A stretch of DNA of 64,000 nucleotides from Photorhabdus thracensis (lineage in GTDB: Bacteria; Pseudomonadota; Gammaproteobacteria; Enterobacterales; Enterobacteriaceae). Position 1 is the first letter of the stretch; each line of letters starts with the position of its first letter. Of this stretch, positions 44,447-58,372 are shown in pieces. Location: assembly GCF_001010285.1 (NCBI RefSeq), contig NZ_CP011104.1, positions 682,001 to 746,000 of the forward strand, in the 5' to 3' direction. The notes beneath the pieces were generated by a model, which was not told the origin of the DNA, made no database searches, and saw nothing but the letters and a program-made list of their open reading frames with translations. The translations under genes and the position numbers were made by a program.

Positions 44447-44490
44447 TTATTAAATAATATTAGCTTATTATATTCATCACTGCGTAATTT

Positions 44491-44523: not shown

Positions 44524-44734
44524 CTAAACGGAATAGATTACACTGATCACTAACACGTTACGCATTATAATTCTGGTTTGAATCTACTGACTTCCGGAAT
44601 AACTGTTCTTAAACGGGACAGAGATTATCTTATGAAACTCGTGATATAATAAATGTATAACAAAAATAACAATTCCGTAACTTCATAAAATCTTTATTAT
44701 GAGACTACCAATATAAACAATGAGATGATTTAAA

Positions 44735-45343
44735 ATGTCTGCGAAATACGTAATTATTACACGCTTTCCATTAAAAAAACAAACTGATACTCATAAGTTC
44801 AACACATTGAAAAATAAAAATAATAAAAAATATTTTATTTCAGATGAACAAGGAATTAATGAATTATTAGAACTTCGTTCTTTTTCATCAATTGATGAAA
44901 TAAGCGAAAGTGAAAACGAATTAGAGTCGGCATTTGAGAGTTTTTCTTCAATCTTGAGCGGAGATATTTGCCGTGAATTGGTAAAATTTGTTGAAGCGCC
45001 AATTGACTCAGAAGATGAACTTCCTATTACGGAGTATATTCAACTTCGTCATGTAGAAGTACCAGCAGAAAATTATAAACAATACCGTCAATGGCGTGAA
45101 GAGACAATCTTTAATGTGGTACGGGAAAATAAAGATAAGATTATCAGTTTTGAAGCCTACCATTCTCTGATTAGTGGTCAACCTGGTGTTATGTTTATTT
45201 CGGCATTTAATGTAGATAAAGAAAGCTATTTAGAGGTGTTTACCAATGAACGTTATCGGAATATTATCCAGCAAGCTGGGGATAACTACATTACAGGAGG
45301 AAATGGTGGTCTTTATACTCGTATTTATCGTTCTATTTCTTGA
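44735..45343 (+). CDS. Dimeric alpha/beta-barrel-like protein of unknown function
   Basis: A 202-residue AT-rich gene product without signal peptide or membrane segment. The C-terminal half (about 99-200: YIQLRHVEVPAENYKQYRQW, then FEAYHSLISGQPGVMFISAF, then LYTRIYRSI) has the beta-alpha-beta rhythm of stress-responsive or antibiotic-monooxygenase-type dimeric alpha/beta barrels. The N-terminal half may be a second degenerate copy (YVIITRFPL at the start). Such proteins often act as cyclases, isomerases or small oxygenases, but no catalytic residue can be assigned. It is the first gene of a co-directional group, 23 bases before the AfsA-like gene. No specific family name can be given. Confidence 0.6.
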   Translation: MSAKYVIITRFPLKKQTDTHKFNTLKNKNNKKYFISDEQGINELLELRSFSSIDEISESENELESAFESFSSILSGDICRELVKFVEAPIDSEDELPITEYIQLRHVEVPAENYKQYRQWREETIFNVVRENKDKIISFEAYHSLISGQPGVMFISAFNVDKESYLEVFTNERYRNIIQQAGDNYITGGNGGLYTRIYRSIS

Positions 45344-45366
45344 TGTTTTAAAATCTGGTAACGAAA

Positions 45367-46161
45367 ATGAAAAACACAGCAGCGTGTAAAAAAATAGTCG
45401 TTGTAGGGGACAAGTTTAATGCATTTGCCAATGGTAAAGATGTCGTTACCATTAGCCAATTGGATCTTATTACACAAATCCCTGCTCATATTATTGATAC
45501 AAAGAAGCAGTTTATTGTTGGTCAGGGAGTAAGATATGATTTTGCAGAAAAAGTATTAGATAATCAGAAGAGAAACCAGTGCCATAATAACGAAATAGAT
45601 TTGACTACTTTGCAACAGTTAACCGTTTCGAGGAAAAATGAATACTCACATAAGAAAATAACACATAATACGGTGATAGGTGTTGCAGAGAAAGTGAATG
45701 AAAATTTATTTTCTTTACCACTGTTAATTGATGAACGTTGTGAATTAATGGCTGACCATCAAACAGGGCAACATATTCAAGGGATGATTTTAGTTGAGGC
45801 TTGTCGTCAGACTTTTATAGCTGTGACAGAAGAGTTTTATATGTCAGATAAAGTAGGACAGTCTTATTATGTTATCAATGACATGAATATAAAATTTTCA
45901 AACTTTTTATTCCCTTTACCAGCAGTAGTTAATTATGAATTGGTAGAAGAAGATATTAACGATCGCCGTTCCCGTTTTAAAGCTAATATTCATATCTCAC
46001 AACATACAACACTTTGTGCATCTATGGCTGTTTCCTTCACGGTTTATCCAGAAAAAGTGATCAGCAAAAAAGAAGCAGCAATGGCTAACGAAATCACTAA
46101 GGCTATTTTGCAGACTCAAAACATAAGCACACAAGCTGTTGAGGGGAATGTATATGCCTGA
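45367..46161 (+). CDS. AfsA-type hotdog protein (A-factor biosynthesis family)
   Basis: A 264-residue protein with a recognisable AfsA hotdog domain at about 90-235. The core motif DHQTGQHIQGMILVEACRQ (130-148) contains the family glutamate (Glu144) followed by Arg147 and Gln148. A first, weaker hotdog may occupy residues 20-80, so a two-domain AfsA layout is possible. In Streptomyces AfsA and MmfL join a beta-ketoacyl thioester to dihydroxyacetone phosphate on the way to gamma-butyrolactone or furan signals. The stop overlaps the next gene by eight bases. A HAD phosphatase and a thiolase are further downstream, which fits such chemistry. The substrate is an inference, since many proteobacterial AfsA-like proteins are uncharacterised. 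Confidence 0.78.
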   Translation: MKNTAACKKIVVVGDKFNAFANGKDVVTISQLDLITQIPAHIIDTKKQFIVGQGVRYDFAEKVLDNQKRNQCHNNEIDLTTLQQLTVSRKNEYSHKKITHNTVIGVAEKVNENLFSLPLLIDERCELMADHQTGQHIQGMILVEACRQTFIAVTEEFYMSDKVGQSYYVINDMNIKFSNFLFPLPAVVNYELVEEDINDRRSRFKANIHISQHTTLCASMAVSFTVYPEKVISKKEAAMANEITKAILQTQNISTQAVEGNVYA

Positions 46162-46984
46162 AAAATACGGTCAAACTTATAATCTGGCCGTCACTACGCA
46201 GGGGCCTCTTTATCCCCCTGCTGAGGTGGTGGATATTCACGGGAATTTTGTCGTGGTCGGTCAGATTCCCTCTGATGATGGTATTCGTTGGGGCTGTGCA
46301 ATTGTGAATCAGAACAGTCCGTTGCCACCTTATGGACAGGTTGAACCATATAATATTGTTCAGAATCTTGATGAACAGTCAAAAGACTATCTGGTAAAAA
46401 TCACCTTATATACATTGCCATTACCGCTACCGATGAATAACTATCCTATGATATTTGCTCCAGAGCAGCGACCAGAAGCAGCTCGAGATCAGCGACCAAG
46501 CAGGCCATTACATGAAGGATATATTGCTGATTTCCGAGCTTCTGATGGACGACGTAAGCTGCAACCTATCACATTGTGGGATTGGATGAAGGCTAAGGGG
46601 ACTCTGACGGTAACTCTGAGTAAAGACAAGCGCAGTGCACGCTTTGATTTTACCTTTAAGCATCTGGTACCACACAGTGTTTATACTGTTATGAGTCTGC
46701 GTGAACGAGATCTGGCTCTTGAGAAACCTAGTCGTCCAGGGCCGCTCGGAATACCTAACGTTTTTGTTACTGATGCTGAAGGGAACGCAGAATATTGGGC
46801 AGAATTATCTAATCCATTCCCCTCAGGGGGAAAGGAGCGTAACCGTATTATCAACATTGTTGTTCTTTTTATGAGTTGTCAGCAAAGTTTTGGCGGTGCG
46901 ATAGGTTTATATGGTTTGGGGGGGGATATCCATGCTCATCTAAAATTACCTACTGCTTCTTTCAGTGAATTCACTACTTTTTAA
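46154..46984 (+). CDS. Unknown protein encoded with the AfsA-like gene
   Basis: A 276-residue protein I do not recognise. It has no signal peptide or membrane segment, is rich in Pro, and has a central WDWMKAKGTLTVTL stretch and a C-terminal segment SFGGAIGLYGLGGDIHAHLK with a His-Ala-His pair. A beta-sandwich is plausible from alternating hydrophobic residues. The frame opens with TTG at 46139, but the ATG at 46154 is seven bases after GAGGGG and overlaps the upstream stop codon, which indicates translational coupling with the AfsA-like gene. Its base composition is less AT-rich than the two genes before it. Confidence 0.7.
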   Translation: MPEKYGQTYNLAVTTQGPLYPPAEVVDIHGNFVVVGQIPSDDGIRWGCAIVNQNSPLPPYGQVEPYNIVQNLDEQSKDYLVKITLYTLPLPLPMNNYPMIFAPEQRPEAARDQRPSRPLHEGYIADFRASDGRRKLQPITLWDWMKAKGTLTVTLSKDKRSARFDFTFKHLVPHSVYTVMSLRERDLALEKPSRPGPLGIPNVFVTDAEGNAEYWAELSNPFPSGGKERNRIINIVVLFMSCQQSFGGAIGLYGLGGDIHAHLKLPTASFSEFTTF

Positions 46985-47080
46985 ATAATTACAACACCAA
47001 GAAAAATAACTACAAGAATGTAATTAAACAGATTTTTTAACTAAAATCCTATCAAAAAATTTATTAGGAGAGTAGGAACT

Positions 47081-47755
47081 GTGAAGCGAATAGCCGCTTT
47101 TTTCGATGTTGATGAAACTTTGATAAAAATGAAAAGTATGTTTCATTTTTATCAATTTTGGTGCCATTGTCGCCAACGTCAGCATGAATATAATGCATTT
47201 AATGAGCGGTTTATAACTGCTCTTTCTCAGGGAGCTAAAAGAGAAGAATTAAATCGTATGTATTATCGGCAACTCAGTGGAGTTTATATAGATGAGTTGT
47301 ATCAAGAGGGTGAGAATTGGTTTAATAAGTTTCTTAAAAAGGATGAGATTTATATTTCGTCAGCAATAGATGCGTTTTATAAACATCAGACTTATGGTCA
47401 TTTAACAGTATTTATCTCCGGCTCCATGTTGCCTTTATTAAAGCCATTGGGACGGCATTTGGGAGTGGATGTTATTCTGTGTACGCAATTATTGTTAAAT
47501 AAAGAAGGAAAACTAACAGGAGAGATAGATGAACCACAAACCATAGGAGAAGGAAAGAAAAAAGCATTAATTCCCTTTTCATACAGCCAACATATTGATC
47601 TGGAAAATAGCTTTGCTTATGGCGACGACCTTTCTGATGTATCGATGTTAGAGGCTACAGGAAATCCGGTTTGCGTTGGTGATAATACAAATCTGGCCGC
47701 ATATGCTCGAAGGAATAATTGGGAAATTCTTACTGAAAGTGCCCATATTTATTGA
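47081..47755 (+). CDS. HAD-superfamily IB phosphatase
   Basis: A 224-residue HAD hydrolase of the SerB-like IB group. The nucleophile motif is FFDVDETLI with Asp9 and the acid/base Asp11; motif II is VFISGS (about 109-114), and motif IV is AYGDDLSDVSMLE. The cap region is helical (about 20-95). It starts with GTG at 47081 after AGGAG. In butyrolactone and methylenomycin-furan pathways a HAD-type phosphatase removes the DHAP-derived phosphate, so its presence two genes after an AfsA-like protein is suggestive. The substrate is not readable from the sequence. Confidence 0.82.
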   Translation: MKRIAAFFDVDETLIKMKSMFHFYQFWCHCRQRQHEYNAFNERFITALSQGAKREELNRMYYRQLSGVYIDELYQEGENWFNKFLKKDEIYISSAIDAFYKHQTYGHLTVFISGSMLPLLKPLGRHLGVDVILCTQLLLNKEGKLTGEIDEPQTIGEGKKKALIPFSYSQHIDLENSFAYGDDLSDVSMLEATGNPVCVGDNTNLAAYARRNNWEILTESAHIY

Positions 47756-47829
47756 AGAATATTATGAAAATTGAAAAGAATGATAATTATAAAAACCACG
47801 TAGAGTAACATATTAGTAAGGAAAACAAG

Positions 47830-48240
47830 ATGAAAATGGGTAAAGAATTAACCGAACATGGTCGCTCTATTATGGAGTCATTAGAGCCAGGTTTGGCAGA
47901 TCGAGTAATGGGAAGTTTAGCAGAACTGGATGCAGACTTACCATTTTTGATTACTGATTATGCCTTTGGTGCAGTTGTGGGACGTGAAGGTTTGGATCTT
48001 AAAACGCGTGAGATGCTCTCAGTAGCCTCTTTGATTACTTTAGGTAATGCTCAGCCTCAATTAGAACTGCATATGCGTGCTGCACTTAATGTAGGAGTCA
48101 CAGAGAAAGAGTTATTGGAGATTGTAATCCAGATGGCTGTGTACGCTGGTGTTCCCGCCTGCATGAATGGGCTAACTGCGTTCCGTGCAGCTATAGCTCA
48201 AAGAAATGCACTGAAGAGTGAAACAGGAGGGAAATCATGA
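47830..48240 (+). CDS. Carboxymuconolactone decarboxylase-family protein
   Basis: A 136-residue all-helical protein of the CMD/AhpD family. The family core reads LELHMRAALNVGVTEKELLE with the conserved histidine and glutamates. It has no CxxC pair, so it is not an AhpD-type peroxidase and is closer to the PcaC type, which decarboxylates a butenolide-like lactone acid. Its stop codon overlaps the thiolase start (ATGA), so they are translationally coupled. No other catechol-pathway genes are nearby. A role on a lactone intermediate of the cluster is an inference. Confidence 0.78.
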   Translation: MKMGKELTEHGRSIMESLEPGLADRVMGSLAELDADLPFLITDYAFGAVVGREGLDLKTREMLSVASLITLGNAQPQLELHMRAALNVGVTEKELLEIVIQMAVYAGVPACMNGLTAFRAAIAQRNALKSETGGKS

Positions 48241-49415
48241 GAGACGTTGTTGTTGTTGCTGCTAAACGTACGGCAACGGGTAGTTTCCGGGGTTCGCTAG
48301 CTGATCAACCAGCAACTTTTCTTGGCAGTACGGTCATCCGTGCCTTGCTAGCAGAAAGTGGTGTTGCTGCACGAGATATTGAACAGGTCATTATGGGGCA
48401 AGTGCTGACGGCCGGTTGTGGACAAAATCCAGCGCGGCAAACTGCATTGCGAGCGGGGTTACCAGTTACTATCCAAGCTATGACAATTAATAAGGTCTGT
48501 GGTTCAGGTCTGAAAGCTGTTCATTTGGGTATGCAAGCGATCCAGAGTGGTGAAGCGGAGATAGTTATTGCTGGTGGGCAGGAGAACATGTCTCTGGCTC
48601 CTCACATTCTACCCATGTCTCGACAAGGGATTCGTCTCGGCCACTGTGAACTGAAAGATAGTTTGGTACATGATGGCCTTTGGGATGCTTTTCATCATTT
48701 TCACATGGGAGTAACAGCAGAAAATGTTGCAAAGCAATTTAATATAACACGTGCTCAGCAGGATGAATATGCGCTTCTATCACATCACCGGGCTGTTCAT
48801 GCTCAACAGGCGGGGTATTTTAATGACGAGATTGTTGCTGTTGAGATAGCAGGAAGAAAGGGAGAAACTCTCCGTTTCGTACAAGATGAGGGGCCACGGG
48901 AGACTAGCATAGAAAAATTATCTTCTCTGAAGCCTGTCTTTCAGAAAGAAGGGACAGTTACCGCTGGTAATGCATCTTCCCTGAATGATGGTGCTGCGGC
49001 AGTGTTATTATGTAGCCGCGAGAAAGCAGAAAGTCTAAATTTACAGCCATTGGCTACTTTGGGCGGCTTTGCCAATACAGGTATTGAGCCCGAGCTCATG
49101 GGAGTGGCTCCCATTGAAGCGATACACCAGTGTATATTAAAACAGCAATGGAAGCCTGAGGATGTTGATGTACTTGAGTCAAACGAGGCATTTGCTGCGC
49201 AGGCTTTGGCTGTGCTTTCTTCGTGTGGTGTTCCATCTGAGCGTGTCAATCCTTATGGTGGTGCTATTGCTTTAGGACATGCCATCGGTGCTTCTGGATG
49301 CCGCATTCTTGTGACGTTAATCCATAACTTGAGACGGAACCGTTTGCAGAATGGTATCGCTGCGCTGTGTATTGGCGGTGGTGAAGGAGTGGCTTTGGCG
49401 GTCACTTGTTCATAA
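48237..49415 (+). CDS. Thiolase, acetyl-CoA C-acyltransferase type
   Basis: A 392-residue thiolase. The acyl-binding cysteine is Cys88 in NKVCGSGLKAVHLG, the NEAFAAQ motif carries the second active-site region, the catalytic histidine lies in YGGAIALGHAIGASG, and the last cysteine is in CIGGGEGVA. That last motif normally reads GGGQG; here Gln is replaced by Glu. Biosynthetic thiolases join two acyl-CoAs to a beta-ketoacyl-CoA. It closes the six-gene cluster and could supply the beta-keto substrate for the AfsA-like protein. Alternatively it may belong to ordinary acetoacetyl-CoA metabolism. Confidence 0.88.
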   Translation: MRDVVVVAAKRTATGSFRGSLADQPATFLGSTVIRALLAESGVAARDIEQVIMGQVLTAGCGQNPARQTALRAGLPVTIQAMTINKVCGSGLKAVHLGMQAIQSGEAEIVIAGGQENMSLAPHILPMSRQGIRLGHCELKDSLVHDGLWDAFHHFHMGVTAENVAKQFNITRAQQDEYALLSHHRAVHAQQAGYFNDEIVAVEIAGRKGETLRFVQDEGPRETSIEKLSSLKPVFQKEGTVTAGNASSLNDGAAAVLLCSREKAESLNLQPLATLGGFANTGIEPELMGVAPIEAIHQCILKQQWKPEDVDVLESNEAFAAQALAVLSSCGVPSERVNPYGGAIALGHAIGASGCRILVTLIHNLRRNRLQNGIAALCIGGGEGVALAVTCS

Positions 49416-49499
49416 TGAGTATGAGCAAGGTACTTAAAATCAATCTCTTCTTTCACCATGCTTTTCGCGGGAAGCTCCTTCCTTTCAGGTCGTAGGTAT

Positions 49500-50137
49500 C
49501 TACACATCGCCGAACTGATCCAACACACTTGCGGCTAGCCGGGTCAGTTCCTCATCCTTCAGTCGGGTAACTATTAGCCTGACCCGGAGCAGCGAACCTG
49601 ACTGCACTTTTAGCTTTTTTCCGGTTTCTTCATTGATACGTTTCGGTTTGGCCGCTCGCGTTATCGTTATTTGGGCTTCACTCACCGCCAGACTCGTCTT
49701 CCTGCCTTTGTAATCCACTTGTCTGGTCACGTGAAAAAACAGGCTTTCTGCCACCTGACCGAGTTTTTGCGTTTCGCCTTGATATTCAACCCGGAGGCCC
49801 TCTTTTCCCCGGATTAACCACCGAAATCCCTGCGAACTGAGCTGACGCAGATGGCTCACCGAATCGCCTTCCCGGCCAATCACATGAATCAATGTCTTGC
49901 CCAGTTCCAGGGCTTCAATCTGGCTGATACTGGTCGTCACCGCATCCAAATGCGTTTCCTGGGGAAGCCGGTTCTCATCCAGCGTCAAGTGATATCCAGT
50001 ATTATCCGTCAGTGACTGCGCCACCAGGAAATTGGCAGACCGGAAGCGGCATCAACCAGCAGACTGGTTTGCAAGTCATAGCCGATATCTCGGGTATGCG
50101 TCATCTGAAGACGATGGGCTTTATACAGCAGCTACCC
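49500..50137 (-). pseudogene. Internal fragment of an IS4-family transposase
   Basis: On the minus strand the first part reads LLYKAHRLQMTHTRDIGYDL then QTSLLVDAASGLPIS, with the first catalytic Asp (VDA), then shifts frame near 50030. It continues as AQSLTDNTGYHLTLDENRLP and HVIGREGDSVSHLRQL, with the second Asp. The N-terminal part, the final glutamate region and recognisable terminal repeats are missing. It separates the thiolase operon from the SDR/DMT module and is a dead remnant. The 806-base gap between those genes otherwise holds nothing I can identify. Confidence 0.82.
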
Positions 50138-50221
50138 ATCAGATTTTGAGAGAACGGGGGACAGTATATTTCCATTTTCCCAAGCCCCCCTAGAAAACAA
50201 ACAACTAATTATTGTAGATTG

Positions 50222-51145
50222 TTATTTCGCCGGTAATCCCTTAGATATAAACCACGAAGTAATCATCCCCTGCCCTAAAAGTACCCCTGCAATGGTGATA
50301 ATTATTCCAATAATTTGCGCTAAACTTGGAATATCCCCCATTGCTACTTGTATACCAAGAGCAAAAATTGGAACGAAATTGAAAAATATCGCTGTTTTTC
50401 CTGGTCCTCTAGTAGCAATGCCTATATTCCAAAAAAGATAGGCAAAAACGGAACCGGCGATCCCCATATAGACACTCGCCAGATGACTTTCAAGTTTTCC
50501 TGAGAATAATGAAGGAACCGGTGATTCAATGAAAATGGCAATAATAGCCAATATCACAGTACCAAAAAGCATCGTCCAACTAGTTGTTTCGAGAGGAGTA
50601 GCGCCTGTAACAAACGTGCGGGTTCCCACTGTGTAAATTGCCCAACCGAGGCTACCCGCTAAAATGATTAAGTCACCAGATGCTGTATGAATTGCTCCGC
50701 CAGAAAACAATTGACCATTGGTGATAACTAACGCTACACCAAATAGACTAATCGTCATCCCGTACACGCGGATAAGATCTGGAAAACGGCGATTCATTAT
50801 GGCTTCCAGAATATTGGCAGAAATTGGGGTTGTCGCCATTATTAATGCAGCAGTGACAGGGCTGGAGCTTTGCAGGCCAACGAACAAAGCCCCATTGAAG
50901 CCGGCGACGCCAATCGTTCCAAGACTAATGAATGCGAGAAGGTTTTGTCTCAGTACCTTACCGTGAATACCGCCCTTAAGGACCATAAAGATAAAAATAG
51001 CTAAGACAGCGAAGACAAAACGTTCAACAGATGCAGTCCATGGAGGTAAGCTGCTGAGAGCGAGTTTTGTTGCCTGAAAATTGGAGCCCCAAAAGAAGGT
51101 TGCAAATAGAGTCAGAATGACGGCTAGCTGTGGTGTGACCCGCAT
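50222..51145 (-). CDS. DMT-superfamily (EamA) transporter
   Basis: A 307-residue transporter with about ten membrane segments and two EamA repeats (from MRVTPQLAVILTLFATFFWG onward; second repeat about 155-290). It follows the SDR gene on the same strand, with 10 bases between stop and start. The frame is open from 51256, but the extra 37 residues overlap the SDR coding region and are not family-like, so the ATG at 51145 is chosen. It is distinct from the DMT protein at 30722. The substrate is unknown. Confidence 0.82.
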   Translation of the reverse strand: MRVTPQLAVILTLFATFFWGSNFQATKLALSSLPPWTASVERFVFAVLAIFIFMVLKGGIHGKVLRQNLLAFISLGTIGVAGFNGALFVGLQSSSPVTAALIMATTPISANILEAIMNRRFPDLIRVYGMTISLFGVALVITNGQLFSGGAIHTASGDLIILAGSLGWAIYTVGTRTFVTGATPLETTSWTMLFGTVILAIIAIFIESPVPSLFSGKLESHLASVYMGIAGSVFAYLFWNIGIATRGPGKTAIFFNFVPIFALGIQVAMGDIPSLAQIIGIIITIAGVLLGQGMITSWFISKGLPAK

Positions 51146-51155
51146 AACAATGACC

Positions 51156-51881
51156 TTATTTTTCCAATTGATACCATAATGGAGCATCAAGACGCATATA
51201 TGATACATGCGCAGTCGAATTTGTACTGAGAACAAAGCATACAGCTTCTGAAACATCTTTTGGTGTAAGCATTCTTCTCAATTTTTCATCAGGGAAAACA
51301 CCCGCATTACCTAAATTGCGACGAAAGTTGGTATCGACTTTGTCCACTTGCAACGACGTCACTCGTATATTTCTGGGAAGGCCCCACGCGCGTAATCCTC
51401 CTGTATAGCCCTCTACTGCAAACTTTGATGCTGAGTATGAGAGTAGATTCGGATTGTAGTCTACTCCCCATACGGAAGATATATTCACAATATCAGAGCG
51501 CTCTTTTCCTTGTAAGTACGGTAAAGCGGCTTGGGTTATTTGAAACATACCTTTTACGTTAATATCAAATGTGTCTTCCCATTCTTCGGGTGACGCAGTG
51601 AGTGGATCTCCCCCGTAGCAAATACCTGCCACATTAATCAGTGTGTCTATTGAACCAAATGTTTCCACTGCGGTTTGAATAGCTTGGGTGCAACTATTGG
51701 CATCCCGTATGTCGAACTGAAGGGGGACTAAACGAGCTGAATCGCTGTCACTACCGTGAGTATTAATTGATGTGATGTCTCCAGCAGCTACAAAATGACC
51801 TGCTTGCAGGAGATCCTGAACCAATGAAGATCCAATACCTCCACCAGCACCAGTAATAAATATTTTTCTTTTCTTCATCAT
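51156..51881 (-). CDS. Short-chain dehydrogenase/reductase
   Basis: A 241-residue classical SDR. The cofactor motif is TGAGGGIG (residues 10-17), the NAG-like motif is NVAGICYGG, the catalytic serine is in NISSVWG, and the YxxxK pair is in SYSASKFAVEGYTGG. It is upstream of a DMT transporter on the same strand and divergent from a LysR regulator across 279 bases that contain a strong inverted repeat. The module probably forms one regulated unit. The substrate is unknown; nothing ties it to the AfsA cluster except proximity. Confidence 0.88.
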   Translation of the reverse strand: MMKKRKIFITGAGGGIGSSLVQDLLQAGHFVAAGDITSINTHGSDSDSARLVPLQFDIRDANSCTQAIQTAVETFGSIDTLINVAGICYGGDPLTASPEEWEDTFDINVKGMFQITQAALPYLQGKERSDIVNISSVWGVDYNPNLLSYSASKFAVEGYTGGLRAWGLPRNIRVTSLQVDKVDTNFRRNLGNAGVFPDEKLRRMLTPKDVSEAVCFVLSTNSTAHVSYMRLDAPLWYQLEK

Positions 51882-52057
51882 AATGGCCTCTCATATCATA
51901 TTAAATAAGTAGACTTAGTCAGGATGGGGATTGGATGTGTGGTGGTTAACTCATTTCCAATTAACTCATCAATGCTGGTCTCAGAGTAAGCAACAAGTAC
52001 TTTTGACTGCCATTATTTATTGAACGACAATGACAGTCTAAGAATGAACGATTCGAC

Positions 52058-52095
52058 ATTCAATATATGCAGAAATGACCGTTGGTATATTGAAT
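52058..52095. promoter_or_regulatory. Inverted repeat in the SDR-LysR divergent region, candidate operator
   Basis: ATTCAATATA at 52058-52067 and TATATTGAAT at 52086-52095 are perfect 10-base arms separated by 18 bases. The match extends outward to GA-ATTC... / ...GAATATC with one mismatch. It lies 66-103 bases upstream of the LysR start, the usual place for a LysR-type regulatory site controlling both divergent genes. Confidence 0.6.
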
Positions 52096-52160
52096 ATCAA
52101 AAAAACGTCATGCATTAAACTCGTTTACTTTTATCAAGATAATTGTGGCATATATCAAAT

Positions 52161-53126
52161 ATGAAAGATGTAGATAATATTGGAATTCAACTTTCCAAAA
52201 ATGGAAGCAGCATTGAGCAGTCTCTTGTTTGGGATGATATACGTGTATTCTTGGCAGTGGCTCGAACTGGTACCATAAGTAGGGCTGCGGATCTTCTCAA
52301 GATAGGAGTTGCAACTGTATCCAGAAGAATTGAACGACTTGAAGCAACTTTTGGGATGCCATTGTTTCTCCGCCATCAAGCTGGTTATCGACTAACAGAA
52401 GACGGAACTGAACTTCTGGGAAAAGCGAAAAGTATGGAGATGGCAGCAAATACATTGTTGCTTGAGGCGGATACACGCATGGAAATTTCGGGAAAAGTTC
52501 GAATTGCTACTACGGAGACCCTCGCAAACAGTTTAATAATTCCTAGTTTGCCAAGCTTACAGAAAAATTATCCGGATCTAACATTGGAGATCATTACAGA
52601 TATTCGTACTGTCAATTTACATCGTCGCGACGCTGACTTGGCACTTCGCATAATTAGGCCAGAGAGAGGGCATGTAACTATTCGTCAATTAGGCATCTTA
52701 GGATTTGGTCTTTATGGAAGTGAAGATTACCTGGCAACTCATTCATCAGGAGCACTTAGAGGAGAATATGAAAATGATAACTTTATTGGGTGGACAGATG
52801 ATCAATCTCAACTCTTTACATTCAAATGGGTTGAACAAATGCTCAAAGGCCGTCCACTTTCTGTAGCCACAACTTCCCTTTCTGCTCAAATTTCTGCTGT
52901 AAAAGCAGGCTTGGGATTGGCAGTACTTCCACATTTTGTCGCCAACGCGGCGGGTTTCATATGTGTTTCAAGTAATTTGGGCATAGATCAACCTTTATGG
53001 CTGGTAATTCAAGCAGATTTAGCGCATTCCCTCAGGATAAGAAAAGTTGCAGACTTTCTGGCAGATACAGTGTTTCTAAATAGGGCAAAACTTTTAGGGC
53101 AAGATGAGACCAAACCTTTCAAGTAA
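52161..53126 (+). CDS. LysR-family transcriptional regulator
   Basis: A 321-residue LysR regulator. The N-terminal HTH is at about 25-80 (FLAVARTGTISRAADLLKIG, then VATVSRRIERLEATFGMPLF), followed by a LysR substrate-binding domain. It is divergent from the SDR-DMT pair, its likely target. A TTG at 52143 would add six residues; the ATG at 52161 is preferred. An N-terminal extension of about 25 residues before the HTH is slightly longer than usual. Confidence 0.88.
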   Translation: MKDVDNIGIQLSKNGSSIEQSLVWDDIRVFLAVARTGTISRAADLLKIGVATVSRRIERLEATFGMPLFLRHQAGYRLTEDGTELLGKAKSMEMAANTLLLEADTRMEISGKVRIATTETLANSLIIPSLPSLQKNYPDLTLEIITDIRTVNLHRRDADLALRIIRPERGHVTIRQLGILGFGLYGSEDYLATHSSGALRGEYENDNFIGWTDDQSQLFTFKWVEQMLKGRPLSVATTSLSAQISAVKAGLGLAVLPHFVANAAGFICVSSNLGIDQPLWLVIQADLAHSLRIRKVADFLADTVFLNRAKLLGQDETKPFK

Positions 53127-53340
53127 TGTAAACTTCATTGGCAAGAGTCACTTAGAACAATAGACAGGCTGCTCATTGCAATTTTGTTCATAAAAAATTA
53201 ATGACAGCCTGACTGGCTGCGATATGGTGCGAAATTAAAAATAACAGCGTAAGAAATACCTATACATAAAGGCTGTTTGTTTCCCTATATTAATATTGTT
53301 GTTTTATCAGAGCATATATATCGAAACATTGTCTGGGTCA

Positions 53341-54255
53341 TTAATTTTTTGGAGAAAGAGCAAGCAACTTTTGGGTTATATGCAACACATTATCACGATG
53401 TTCATTACTACGTATTACCAAATAGATATCAATGTTCAGCTGCTCATTGTCTGACTTATCTAACTTGCGATAGCACAGGCCCTCGCGCATTGATACACAC
53501 ATTGACTGTGGCATCAGTGCCATTCCTTTCCCTCTGGCTATATTAGCCAGCATGATCAATGAATCATCAGGTTTTGGTATTCGTTTCAAAGGAAATGGCA
53601 ACTGTTGAAAATAGGTTTCGCATTTACCGTAGAAGCCAGGATTCGCTCTACGTGAAAACCAATATAAAGGTAAATCAGCTACATCCTGTAATAAGACTCG
53701 CTCTTTAAGGCTTGCAGGATGGAAAGATGGAAGAGCTAGCATTAATGGTTCACGATAAAGCCAGTAAAAACTGAATTCCTGTAAATGGCTAAGAGGTTTT
53801 TCACCTACTAAGGCAATATCCAACTTCCCATTTCCTAGCATTTGCAGTAATTGTTTTGAGACCAACTGATGAGAGGATATGACATTTGTATCGTCTAGTA
53901 ACTTAAAGACAGGATAAATGGAAGGAATGAGGTTGGAATCTAACGTACGTGTGATTCCAATTTTTACCGTACAACTTTCTCTACTTATTTCTCTGACCAA
54001 ATTAGTCAATTGATTTATAAGTTCTCTAGCTTTTTTTTCAAATTGAACGCCCACTTCAGTCAAATAAACTTGGTGAGTATTTCGGGTAAATAAAGAACAA
54101 TCGAGCATTTCTTCTAAGCACTGGATTTGCCGAGTCAATGGGGGTTGAGTCATGAGCATCCGTTCAGCAGCCCGGCGAAAGTTTAATTCATGAGCAACAG
54201 CAAGGAAGCATTGTAATTGTTTAATTGTAGGGAGTTTTCCATTTAAATAATTCAT
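53341..54255 (-). CDS. LysR-family transcriptional regulator
   Basis: A 304-residue LysR regulator with HTH at about 10-65 (CFLAVAHELNFRRAAERMLM, then TQPPLTRQIQCLEEMLDCSL) and a C-terminal effector domain. Codon use is AT-rich. It faces the previous LysR gene (convergent) and has no adjacent enzyme gene of its own: the upstream neighbour is a decayed IS200-type element. Its targets are unknown. Confidence 0.87.
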   Translation of the reverse strand: MNYLNGKLPTIKQLQCFLAVAHELNFRRAAERMLMTQPPLTRQIQCLEEMLDCSLFTRNTHQVYLTEVGVQFEKKARELINQLTNLVREISRESCTVKIGITRTLDSNLIPSIYPVFKLLDDTNVISSHQLVSKQLLQMLGNGKLDIALVGEKPLSHLQEFSFYWLYREPLMLALPSFHPASLKERVLLQDVADLPLYWFSRRANPGFYGKCETYFQQLPFPLKRIPKPDDSLIMLANIARGKGMALMPQSMCVSMREGLCYRKLDKSDNEQLNIDIYLVIRSNEHRDNVLHITQKLLALSPKN

Positions 54256-54589
54256 TTTTATATTTCAACACCGTTTTCAATATTTAATAAGAGCGAAGCG
54301 ATTATAGTGAGCGGTATTAGCTTAACCTTATCTATGTACTATATTTAAGAAAGGTAATTCCACTTTGTTATTAATTAAAATACATTAACTATTAAATTAA
54401 TTAAATGGGCGAATTTACTTAACATGGCAGTAGTCGTGGAACAATAAATTTTGTCAATTAAAGACGCCGTAGTATTGCCACTATGATGGGACATATTGAT
54501 GTTAATGTTTTTATCAAATACTTAATTTGATTTAATTAAATTTTTTATGCTATGCATTTGCATTTATTCTTCCATATGAAAGGTTAAAA
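54256..54589. other. AT-rich gap between LysR and the IS200-type element
   Basis: About 330 bases with no open frame, hairpin or motif I can support. It would hold the promoter of the LysR gene. Confidence 0.5.
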
Positions 54590-55150
54590 CTACCGACTTT
54601 AGTCGGCCAGCTTTAGCTGAGGTAGAGTGTTGCATGGGAGGTGCAACATGGATTACAGATACGATAGTCACACAGTATTTCAGATTGAATATCATTTTGT
54701 GTGGGTAACGAAATACAGGCACAAAGTGCTAACAGGTGAAGTAGCGATATGGGTGTCCGAGTGAGTTCGTCAGATATGTGAAGCATTTGAAATCAGGATA
54801 TTAAAAGGGGTAGTGAGCAAAGCTCATGTTCACATACTGGTGAGTAGTCCCCCCAACATTAGCCCCCTCAGAAATCCTGAGGAGACTGAAGGGAAGGACG
54901 GCGAGTAAGTTGTTTGAAGAGTTTTCTCCTGTGAAGAAGCACTACTAGGGCCAGCATTTTTGGGGCAGAGGCTATTTTTGTGCGATGGTGGATCAGTTAA
55001 CGGAAGAGATGATAAAGGCTTATCTGGAGCATCATTTTGAACCGAACCCGGATGATAACTTCAGGATGGACAATTGAAGCATCGTTCAGCCGATGCGTAT
55101 CCGGATTTTCAGTCCGTTAATCATTAACCTACCGACTTTAGTCGGTGGTT
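54590..55150 (+). mobile_element. Decayed IS200/IS605-family element
   Basis: A complete but inactive single-gene element. Both ends carry the subterminal palindrome CCGACTTTAGTCGG (54593-54606 and 55132-55145). Upstream of the transposase, GTTGCA-tgggagg-TGCAAC forms a hairpin that hides the ribosome site, the translational brake known from IS200. IS200-type elements lack terminal inverted repeats in the usual sense, so the exact ends are uncertain. Confidence 0.85.
54648..55077 (+). pseudogene. tnpA: IS200-type Y1 transposase, inactivated
   Basis: Starts MDYRYDSHTVFQIEYHFVWV, very close to IS200 TnpA, and contains the HUH motif segment KAHVHILVSSPPN. It has an in-frame TGA within the first 45 codons, an extra C in a C-run near 54866 that shifts the frame, and a TAG where the family has a Trp (HY*GQHFWG). 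Past the shift the reading resumes as SEILRRLKGRTASKLFEEFS to the true end HFEPNPDDNFRMDN. With two stops and one frameshift it cannot make a functional transposase. Confidence 0.9.
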
Positions 55151-55469
55151 GTTGAGTTGAATTTATCACCTTAATCTTACTACTTATTTTAGAGGGGATT
55201 ATCTAAAGGTGAATCTTAACTAAAATCACAATTTTAAAAATTCTTAGTGGCTGATCTTTCAATTATTGATTTCACTAATTAGAATCAAAATAATCGGATA
55301 GGAATTATTCCTTTTTTAGTTATATATGACTAATAATTTATAAAGATCATTCAGAGAAATATTTATTCTCTATTGTAATTATTTGACTTTTCTGCCGATA
55401 TTGGTACAGGTTTTTAGTCTCGTTTGTTGTTGAATTGAAGCCATTGAGATCATTAACATTATAACAAAA

Positions 55470-56668: not shown

Positions 56669-58372
56669 TCAAAGCGATGAAGAAAATGGTGATACGGGGG
56701 GATCAGCCGGATAACCTTGTTCACTGTTTACCAGCACATTTGCCATTGTTTTAGCAATTTCGTGTTCGCCAATAATGACATGGCTGGCTCCACGCTCCGT
56801 GATATAGGTAACTTCGTCATCATAGTCAGCACGGACAATAATATTAATATCCGGGCGGATTTCTCTTGCGCTGGCGACAATCTCACCTGCTTCATAACCA
56901 TTAGGGATTGTCAGTAATAGGGAACAAGCACAGTCCAGGCGTGCCAGTGACATAATATCTGTGCTGGCGGCGTTACCCATGACCGCACTGATACCTTGTT
57001 CACCCAGTTCCTCAAATTTGGCTCTAGTATTTTCAATCACAACCAGAGGGAACCCGTTTTCTTGCAAGCGTTGGCATAGCAGGCTACCAGTGCGTCCGTA
57101 GCCGACAACGATAGTGTGACCACAGATATTAACAGGAATTTGCGTCTCTTCTTCCAGGGTTTCTTCCAATAGTTGTTCTTCAATTGTTTCTGTTTTTTCC
57201 AGATAACGGTCCAGCAGGCTAAACAGAACTGGGTTCAGCATGATAGAAACAATCGCACCAGCCAGAACAAGGTTACGGGCATTTCCGTCAAGTAGGCCAA
57301 GTGCAACGCCAAGACCCGCCAGAATAAAGGCAAATTCACCGATTTGTGCCAGACTGACCGAAATCGTCAGCGCAGTACGGCGTGAATGACCGAACATCTT
57401 TACCAGCAACATTGCAGCGGCAGATTTACCGATAATAATAATTGCCAGCGTTGCCAGTATTTCGAGTGGTTGCTGAATCAGTACCATCGGATCAAACAGC
57501 ATACCAACGGATACGAAGAACAGAACAGCGAAAGCATCTCTGAGTGGCAATGTATCTTGAGCAGCCCGGTGGCTGAGTTCTGATTCGTTCAGTACCATAC
57601 CGGCGAAGAATGCACCCAGCGCGAATGAGGCATCAAATAGTGTAACGGCGCCATAAGCGATACCCAGAGCGATAACCAGTACGGCAAGGGTAAATAGTTC
57701 TCTGGAGCCGGTACTGGCGGTTTTTGCCAGTACCCACGGAATTAGACGGCGACCAACAACGATCATCAGCAGAATAAACGCGATAACTTTTCCGACGGTA
57801 ATGGCGAGTTCCATAAATAACTGCCCGGCATTGGCTTCCTGATTACCCAGAATACCGGCAGCCGCAGGCAGTAATACCAGCGTCAGTACCATCGCCAGAT
57901 CTTCAACAATCAGCCAGCCGATAGCTATCTGACCGCGCTGGCTATCGATCAGTTGACGCTCTTCCAGCGCTCGTAACAGAACGACAGTACTGGCAGTTGA
58001 TAGACAGAGACCAAAGACGATACCGCTAACTAATTCCCAACCCAGTATTGCCGATAGCCCGACACCAAGTAGTGTTGCTACCAGTATTTGTGCAATAGCG
58101 CCGGGGATAGCAATGGATTTTACTGCCAGCAGATCTTTGAGTGAAAAATGCAGTCCGACGCCAAACATTAATAAGATAACACCAATTTCGGCCAGTTCCG
58201 GTGCCAGTGATGCATCAGCGACAAAGCCGGGGGTGAAAGGACCCGCGAGTACACCGGCGGTAAGATAACCAACCAGTGGTGAGATTTTCAGACGTTGTGC
58301 CAGCATACCAAGCAGATAAGCGAGGACGAACCCGCCAACGAGAGTGGTGATAAGTGGTGTCGAATGCTCCAT
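56669..58372 (-). CDS. ybaL: Cation/proton antiporter YbaL (KefB/CPA2 family)
   Basis: A 567-residue CPA2 antiporter (E. coli YbaL 558). About twelve to thirteen membrane segments in residues 1-390 are followed by an RCK_N domain that starts VNICGHTIVVGYGRTGSLLC. The acidic linker EEQLLEETLEEETQ precedes the RCK domain. It is the first core gene after the island and lies before fsr, as in E. coli. The transported ion is presumed K+ or Na+ against H+ but is not proven. Confidence 0.95.
   Translation of the reverse strand: MEHSTPLITTLVGGFVLAYLLGMLAQRLKISPLVGYLTAGVLAGPFTPGFVADASLAPELAEIGVILLMFGVGLHFSLKDLLAVKSIAIPGAIAQILVATLLGVGLSAILGWELVSGIVFGLCLSTASTVVLLRALEERQLIDSQRGQIAIGWLIVEDLAMVLTLVLLPAAAGILGNQEANAGQLFMELAITVGKVIAFILLMIVVGRRLIPWVLAKTASTGSRELFTLAVLVIALGIAYGAVTLFDASFALGAFFAGMVLNESELSHRAAQDTLPLRDAFAVLFFVSVGMLFDPMVLIQQPLEILATLAIIIIGKSAAAMLLVKMFGHSRRTALTISVSLAQIGEFAFILAGLGVALGLLDGNARNLVLAGAIVSIMLNPVLFSLLDRYLEKTETIEEQLLEETLEEETQIPVNICGHTIVVGYGRTGSLLCQRLQENGFPLVVIENTRAKFEELGEQGISAVMGNAASTDIMSLARLDCACSLLLTIPNGYEAGEIVASAREIRPDINIIVRADYDDEVTYITERGASHVIIGEHEIAKTMANVLVNSEQGYPADPPVSPFSSSL

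Follow-up and report, generated by a model that had tools for sequence, protein, structure and literature searches.

The DNA considered here, called the window, is a stretch of 64,000 nucleotides from Photorhabdus thracensis (contig NZ_CP011104.1, positions 682,001 to 746,000), whose genome forms one contig of 5.15 Mb. Between positions 44,735 and 49,415 of the window lies an operon of six genes that includes an AfsA-type protein. A preliminary description of this operon, made from the sequence alone, took it for a pathway to a butenolide or furan-like small molecule on the pattern of Streptomyces. The present analysis relates the operon to a gene cluster that a marine bacterium, Ruegeria pomeroyi DSS-3, needs in order to kill other bacteria, and places it in a mobile island. 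The six genes are as follows.

44735..45343, + strand: P1, 202 amino acids, uncharacterised; homologue of SPO_RS21575 (SPOA0343 by gene order), the Ruegeria protein encoded upstream of AfsA
45367..46161, + strand: P2, AfsA-type single-hotdog protein, probable phosphorylated-butenolide synthase; PF03756, 47.6 bits
46154..46984, + strand: P3, 276 amino acids, uncharacterised; homologue of SPOA0341
47081..47755, + strand: P4, HAD-IB phosphatase; PF12710, 101.6 bits; TIGR01490, 138.7 bits (cut-off 98.3)
47830..48240, + strand: P5, CMD-family protein of the decarboxylase (PcaC-like) kind, without CxxC; PF02627, 68.2 bits
48237..49415, + strand: P6, acetoacetyl-CoA-type thiolase; Pfam thiolase N, 338.6 bits, and C, 144.6 bits

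All six open reading frames (ORFs) are complete in the ORF list of the window and follow one another on one strand with small gaps or overlaps, as had been described. The P1 and AfsA genes are 23 bp apart; the AfsA gene and P3 overlap by 8 bp if P3 starts at the ATG at 46154 (its longest ORF begins with a TTG at 46139); and the remaining spacings are, in order, 96 bp (P3 to P4), 74 bp (P4 to P5), and a 4-bp overlap between the CMD and thiolase genes. The motifs noted in the preliminary description are in place as well. In P2, DHQTGQHIQG stands at residue 130 and EACRQ begins with Glu144; P4 has the full HAD set, with DVDET at 9 (Asp9 and Asp11), FISGS at 111, and GDDLSD at 181; and P6 has a complete set of active-site residues (Cys88, NEAFA at 316, GGAIALGH at 341, and Cys378). 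In the HAD and thiolase families, such motifs have catalytic roles. Among NCBIfam models, P6 reaches the TIGR01930 subfamily only, with no thiolase equivalog cut-off attained, and the 40 listed matches with a solved structure are for the most part named acetyl-CoA acetyltransferase. P5 scores 80.8 bits against TIGR02425, under the cut-off of 155.7, and a motif scan found no CxxC in it.

The AfsA protein belongs to its family, as claimed, and has a layout of its own within it. PF03756 matches it in a single stretch, residues 95-225, well above the curated cut-off of 24 bits. At E values up to 1, AfsA is its only Pfam match, and no AvrD-family domain is found. The same model matches in none of 14 control genomes and in 14 of 198 genomes of the same taxonomic family. 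Canonical ScbA/BarX enzymes have two hotdog domains; P2 has one, while a comparison protein from the same family (L005:904-1896) has two. On the ScbA/BarX model NF041195, which requires 200 bits, P2 scores 17.4, the Ruegeria AfsA protein 23.9, and that of a relative, genome G188, 21.4; the two-hotdog comparison protein, at 187.5, is likewise under the cut-off. In front of the hotdog domain, about 93 N-terminal residues of P2 form a conserved extra region. A profile built from this region in six AfsA proteins linked to P3 recovers two held-out proteins, from genomes G042 (3e-11) and G153 (7e-10). Of the nine remaining PF03756 proteins in the family set, it detects none at E below 0.2. Because of the single PF03756 stretch and the selectivity of this profile, P2 is, to judge from its sequence, a separate AfsA architecture of one hotdog domain plus its own N-terminal region. 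In Streptomyces clavuligerus, a protein with a single AfsA stretch matches the N-terminal profile just marginally (E 0.001); no HAD gene is annotated at its locus, and none of the product names of the island-type cluster adjoins it. A tree of 18 AfsA proteins, in which 3 of 15 inner branches are well supported and several branches are long, does not join the P3-linked proteins in one clade (3 changes), and a single origin of the AfsA-P3 pairing is therefore not supported by the tree. Against sequences of the Protein Data Bank (PDB), a profile of P2 finds four hotdog dehydratase chains, the best being 8ayi (E 0.0007). A search of phages gave no AfsA match.

P1 and P3 are conserved partners of the AfsA protein, and this analysis found neither a function nor a structure for them. 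Neither has a Pfam family above cut-off, and P1 has no NCBIfam family either. The Pfam matches of P1 to GhoS (16.4 bits, cut-off 21) and of P3 to DNA_pol3_a_NI (16.6 bits, cut-off 22) were discarded as chance, as was the one PDB match of a P1 profile (E 0.28); the P3 profile found no PDB match. The preliminary description saw P1 as an alpha/beta-barrel protein, a claim that no family match supports. In the model predicted from three close sequences, which is of low confidence (mean predicted local distance difference test score, or pLDDT, of 39), the order of helices and strands would be compatible with such a barrel, and nothing beyond that. The model of P3, also from three close sequences, has a mean pLDDT of 31. 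The cluster is rare, to judge from P3: the P3 profile finds 3 of 392 genomes of the family, a near full-length protein in 2 of 369 genomes of the class (the window's own genome being included in both counts) with weak partial matches in four more, and, in the phylum, one weak match among 398 beyond the own genome. Viral contigs scanned for P3 gave no relative. Four further genomes of Gammaproteobacteria (L049, L050, L051, L052) encode distant relatives that align in part, at about 26-33% identity, and one of these genomes has several copies near an FG-GAP/UnbV protein; the relatives offer no hint of function.

The Ruegeria killing cluster and other relatives

With the AfsA protein as the query, tblastn against plasmids returned 19 records. 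The best is R. pomeroyi DSS-3, with 36.8% identity over 93% of the query, and the other 18 are Streptomyces, at about 25%. According to the annotation of the plasmid record, the Ruegeria genes run in a row of LysR, hypothetical, AfsA, hypothetical, tautomerase, and HAD-IB, and the opposite strand carries genes for CMD, aldo/keto reductase, and MFS proteins. In pairwise comparison, five of the six operon genes match this cluster at 37-55% identity: P1 at 48% (203 columns), AfsA at 37% (SPOA0342), P3 at 55% (278 columns; SPOA0341), HAD at 37%, and CMD at 50%. The homologues of P1, AfsA, and P3 and the HAD phosphatase come in the same order in both. A LysR regulator encoded beyond the operon, at 52143-53126, is 55.6% identical over 313 amino acids to the Ruegeria regulator SPO_RS21580, compared with 33% or less, in partial alignments, for the other LysR proteins of the set. 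The published SPOA numbers were paired with the tags of the record (e.g., SPOA0344 with SPO_RS21580) by gene order, with AfsA as the anchor. By its gene content, the island that holds the operon is, with good support, homologous to a known killing cluster, met here in a new setting and with a changed gene set.

The role of this cluster in Ruegeria is known from a transposon screen (Sharpe et al. 2020; PMC7426152), in which seven non-killers are reported among 10,000 mutants. Six of the insertions lie in the cluster, and the seventh, in SPO0900, merely slowed growth. The killing is diffusible and crosses a 0.22-um filter (PMC7426152). The cluster, SPOA0339-0344 and divergent genes on a megaplasmid, was published as a putative gamma-butyrolactone cluster and is needed to kill other bacteria. 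Mutants with insertions in SPOA0341 lose killing and become sensitive to the parent, SPOA0344 mutants are likewise sensitive to the parent, and the regulator SPOA0344 is required for killing and immunity; afsA mutants retain immunity (PMC7426152). The same paper reports homologues in Gammaproteobacteria and Actinobacteria, with SPOA0341-0343 all present in 29 of 35 organisms, and the word “Photorhabdus” is absent from its main text. The work is cited by PMC10041152. In the literature covered, which was mostly open-access and without preprints, we found no chemical identity for the Ruegeria killer. In titles and abstract openings of that literature, no report of the Photorhabdus operon (AfsA, butenolide, butyrolactone) was found, and later work may exist; antiSMASH “butyrolactone” clusters are reported in Xenorhabdus (PMC10676414, PMC12383660). 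The preliminary description had missed the Ruegeria cluster, which points to an antibacterial product rather than to a signal alone.

Closer relatives are found in two genomes, G188 (L044) and G729 (L076), of the same family, which we take to be Enterobacteriaceae (GTDB). Each has P1, AfsA, P3, tautomerase, HAD, MFS, CMD, and thiolase genes in one run, with a divergent LysR and an aldo/keto reductase nearby, so that all six operon genes are represented. Identities are 60-61% for AfsA, 63-65% for P3, and 70% for the thiolase. In the 19 kb taken from each, no close homologue of the window's SDR, EamA, or LysR at 52143 was seen. A search of E. coli genomes with the DNA of the G188 cluster gave no match. 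The co-conservation that the preliminary description proposed to check is thus five of six genes with Ruegeria and six of six with G188 and G729.

More distant relatives keep smaller parts of the set. A plasmid of Streptomyces sp. YIM 121038 (L042:13637-19976) has beta-ketoacyl-ACP synthase III (KASIII), an acyl carrier protein (ACP), a TauD-type dioxygenase, AfsA, HAD, P1, P3, and an aldo/keto reductase in a row; a type I polyketide synthase gene also lies in this stretch. G505 has P3, AfsA, and HAD only. In G153 (L045:7857-15340), a HAD gene, a single-hotdog AfsA gene, a thiolase, a flavin adenine dinucleotide (FAD) monooxygenase, an aldo/keto reductase, an MFS gene, and another aldo/keto reductase are found without P1 or P3, and the locus would encode a related pathway. 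In G042 (L046:7220-9718), AfsA and HAD adjoin a regulator with an MmyB-like ligand-binding domain (PF17765). Over the eight loci that have the AfsA N-terminal region (the own locus, G188, G729, Ruegeria, YIM 121038, G505, G153, and G042, with near-copies in other Photorhabdus left uncounted), HAD-IB occurs in all eight, P3 in six, P1 in five, and CMD in four. A plasmid of Enterobacter hormaechei (NZ_CP077309.1; L040:5893-10578) carries intact-looking LysR, tautomerase, MFS, and aldo/keto reductase genes next to fragments of P1, HAD, and thiolase, and no AfsA, P3, or CMD match in the 14 kb examined. This decayed cluster, a single and anecdotal record, possibly reflects immunity that was kept after production was lost.

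The extent and movement of the island

The operon is one half of a larger unit. The preliminary description stopped at the thiolase and missed the second half with its regulators; the unit continues to about 54,571. The further features are as follows.

44555..54571, no strand: the whole mobile island, about 10 kb, as defined by the block common to P. asymbiotica at another locus and by the homology of the flanks
49500..50024, - strand: fragment, weakly like an IS4 transposase; NF033590, 18.1 bits, E 0.001 (cut-off 160)
50222..51256, - strand: EamA-family transporter, candidate exporter; PF00892, 127.4 bits
51156..51881, - strand: SDR-family reductase, candidate tailoring or self-protection enzyme; PF00106, 145.8 bits
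52143..53126, + strand: LysR regulator, orthologue of Ruegeria SPO_RS21580 (SPOA0344 by gene order)
53341..54255, - strand: LysR regulator, orthologous by sequence identity to the cluster LysR of G188, G729, and E. hormaechei

The island is about 95% identical in DNA to that of P. asymbiotica over 44568-54335, with gaps, and 79% identical over 54333-54571. On the gsk side, homology to genomes without the intact island stops at 44553-44555, and in three others at 44455; on the LysE side, it restarts at 55150-55320. The EamA protein is 97% identical in P. asymbiotica and P. australis, in the same block. An SDR orthologue (at least 95%) is found in 3 of 12 Photorhabdus genomes, those with the intact island, and the next best match is at most 35%. 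The LysR at 53341-54255 shares 53-54% identity with the divergent LysR proteins of G188 and G729 and 51% with that of E. hormaechei; besides the own genome, P. asymbiotica and P. khanii have this second LysR. The fragment at 49500-50024 has no Pfam match and scores 35.7 bits on the FlhF model, far under its cut-off. Its assignment to ybaL was dropped, and it is at best transposase-like; ybaL is taken as 56669-58372 (Na/H exchanger plus TrkA-N), a name that comes from this architecture and from the label in the preliminary description. Just to the right of the island, a 20-bp sequence with the palindrome CCGACTTTAGTCGG occurs in two copies, at 54587-54606 and 55126-55145, flanking a short stretch; the pair is perhaps a small mobile repeat.

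Both the insertion between gsk and ybaL and the horizontal transfer that had been suspected are borne out. The distance from gsk to LysE-ybaL is about 0.9-1.2 kb in 7 of 12 Photorhabdus genomes, compared with 11.3 kb here. Of the remaining genomes, one has a different insert at the gsk site, one (P. khanii) the remnant, and one (the own genome) the island; the other two, P. asymbiotica and P. australis, have different genes around gsk and the island block at another place. The P. australis contig stops before the last island gene. Since the different insert, a multi-gene one in the Photorhabdus genome G207 (L077:5450-11121), lies at the same gsk-LysE position, the site resembles an insertion hot spot. 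P3 is present in 3 of the 12 genomes and AfsA in 4, the fourth carrier being P. khanii with a broken remnant; in three named Photorhabdus records, AfsA is 95-96% identical.

Synonymous divergence was compared with that of host genes from the same window, four of the five being common to both comparisons; EamA was omitted from this set and from the selection test, as its ORF start varies among copies. Against P. asymbiotica, nine island genes give 0.095-0.219 (mean 0.14) and five host genes 0.36-0.72 (mean 0.53); against P. australis, eight island genes give 0.077-0.280 (mean 0.16) and five host genes 0.42-0.74 (mean 0.54). On average, the divergence of the island is about four times below that of the host genes, and the island therefore moved between lineages, most likely spreading after the Photorhabdus lineages had split. 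The ratio of nonsynonymous to synonymous divergence (dN/dS) of the island genes is 0.06-0.22 for the nine compared with P. asymbiotica and 0.05-0.33 for the eight compared with P. australis. Such values indicate purifying selection on the tested genes, and the island has most likely been kept functional.

A proposed pathway and its rivals

Taken together, the operon would provide the biosynthetic part of a mobile island whose product is a small antibacterial molecule that diffuses, of the sort for which the gene cluster is known in Ruegeria; it would be butenolide-derived and built from acetoacetyl-CoA and dihydroxyacetone phosphate (DHAP). We give this reading a probability of about 0.6. We infer the antibacterial role in Photorhabdus and every chemical step, which would run as follows. 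The thiolase would join two acetyl-CoA to acetoacetyl-CoA, and the single-hotdog AfsA protein would move the acetoacetyl group onto DHAP, after which the ester would close. Since the thiolase is most like acetyl-CoA acetyltransferases, the simplest first product would be a phosphorylated 3-acetyl butenolide (C7H9O7P). The HAD-IB enzyme would then strip the phosphate to leave C7H8O4, and the CMD-family protein, P1, and P3 might rearrange the ring. The SDR, or the aldo/keto reductase in the relatives, may reduce the product or protect the cell; export would fall to EamA (the MFS protein in the relatives), and the two LysR proteins would control the island. An AfsA-like domain is reported to condense a 3-keto thioester with DHAP in vitro and to free a 3-ketobutyryl group upon DHAP addition (PMC7756379), and methylenomycin is an example of an antibiotic from such a pathway (PMC12593393).

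The pathway logic of the preliminary description (supply of a beta-keto thioester, condensation by AfsA, removal of phosphate) gains support from the Streptomyces plasmid, in which KASIII and ACP genes precede AfsA. The type of supplier varies, with a thiolase here and KASIII plus ACP in YIM 121038, as expected if the supply step feeds AfsA; in Ruegeria, G505, and G042, no beta-keto supplier was seen beside AfsA. The statement that there is no butenolide reductase was right for the operon; in the wider unit, the island has an SDR that may act as a reductase, and the relatives have an aldo/keto reductase, so that the product could be a reduced one.

Several points weigh against this reading. 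None of the eight proteins compared from the Ruegeria cluster corresponds to the thiolase, and no thiolase is annotated beside that cluster. Conversely, the tautomerase, MFS, and aldo/keto reductase genes of Ruegeria are all absent among the island ORFs; in the own genome, the G188 aldo/keto reductase had no match at E 0.001 in a search without a positive control, and the G188 MFS protein had matches of 23-25% only. At 37% identity between the AfsA proteins, the substrate may differ. The SPOA0341 insertions may have had polar effects on genes further downstream, in which case the P3 homologue itself would not have to account for the lost killing and immunity. The structure models of P1 and P3 are too poor to use. 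Finally, transcription of 10 cluster genes drops 4- to 60-fold in the Ruegeria afsA mutant, which fits a signal, and the authors of that work leave the molecule open, with the AfsA product possibly a signal (PMC7426152).

These last findings lead to the main rival, in which a butenolide or furan signal, sensed by the LysR proteins as receptors, activates the island or antibiotic genes elsewhere, and any killing lies downstream. The products of Streptomyces AfsA-family enzymes are signals (PMC7756379, citing earlier work), and the island has two LysR regulators. Nevertheless, 10 of the 21 genes altered in the Ruegeria afsA mutant belong to the cluster itself, so that Ruegeria shows no sign of a large antibiotic regulon apart from it (PMC7426152). 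Pfam scans of the ten island genes found LysR and no TetR-type receptor, and an MFS exporter and an aldo/keto reductase are both present in three relatives (G188, G729, and Ruegeria). An antibacterial island explains the data better than a Streptomyces-style signal system, and we consider the rival unlikely, with a real minority chance of being correct.

Another reading, which we think quite improbable, is that AfsA joins the beta-keto thioester to a sugar other than DHAP, such as a pentulose, and that the product resembles methylenomycin or is of the furan type. For MmyD, the proposed substrates are a pentulose and an acetoacetyl thioester, and the pathway ends in an antibiotic (PMC12593393). 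Aldo/keto reductases, KASIII, ACP, and a CMD-family protein are also encoded in a Streptomyces island that contains an AvrD/MmyD homologue (PMC11195616). Set against this are the exclusive Pfam match of P2 to AfsA and the use of DHAP by the AfsA-type enzymes described (PMC7756379). It is very improbable that the island yields neither an antibacterial nor a signaling product and is just metabolic cargo or a relic: the cluster does decay readily, as the P. khanii remnants and the loss of most biosynthetic genes in the E. hormaechei plasmid illustrate, but P. asymbiotica and P. australis, like the window, have complete operon genes, and the tested island genes are under purifying selection.

Returning to the antibacterial island, a broader proposal is more tentative and in our judgment short of an even chance. 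The island could be a self-contained route to a novel type of antibiotic, a very small butenolide that is unsaturated and has a C7 core from acetoacetyl-CoA and DHAP. It would be built by the single-hotdog AfsA subfamily together with the P1 and P3 families, and the route would be common to Photorhabdus, family members, a marine roseobacter, and a Streptomyces; in lineages that lose production, the exporter, reductase, and tautomerase could be kept for immunity. With a homologous cluster, a marine bacterium kills diverse competitors, and the extra genes of the island suggest which small molecule to seek. The acetoacetyl-CoA type of thiolase in the operon (Photorhabdus, G188, and G729) narrows the predicted product to a small, searchable mass, and the pathway has moved between lineages of insect pathogens.

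Comparison with known systems

The nearest known system is that of Ruegeria. The two have in common the order P1-AfsA-P3, a HAD-IB gene downstream, a CMD-family protein, and an orthologous LysR. They differ in that Photorhabdus has a thiolase in the operon and a codirectional CMD gene, which in Ruegeria is on the other strand, and in that Photorhabdus has an SDR, EamA, and a second LysR in place of the tautomerase, MFS, and aldo/keto reductase. The setting is a chromosomal island in Photorhabdus and a megaplasmid in Ruegeria. G188 and G729 share with the island all six operon genes and the LysR at 53341, and differ in having their own tautomerase, MFS, and aldo/keto reductase. YIM 121038 shares AfsA, HAD-IB, P1, and P3 in one gene run, but it has KASIII, ACP, and a TauD-type dioxygenase, with no annotated thiolase and no CMD in the run, and its AfsA is just 25% identical.

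With the Streptomyces AfsA/ScbA systems, the island shares the PF03756 hotdog domain, a phosphatase, and a probable phosphorylated butenolide intermediate. Streptomyces gamma-butyrolactone receptors are TetR-type, whereas the island has LysR regulators, and its AfsA protein has one hotdog domain with its own N-terminal region and falls far under the ScbA/BarX cut-off. The Streptomyces AfsA/MmfL model of the preliminary description does not, as such, carry over. Methylenomycin and the GI-9 island of Streptomyces ambofaciens (MmyD/AvrD) resemble the island in the use of an acetoacetyl-type unit and a sugar, as proposed for MmyD (PMC12593393), and the furan-type island GI-9 does so in its aldo/keto reductase and CMD-family genes (PMC11195616). 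These systems, however, are reported to use an AvrD-family butenolide synthase, which KASIII and ACP supply.

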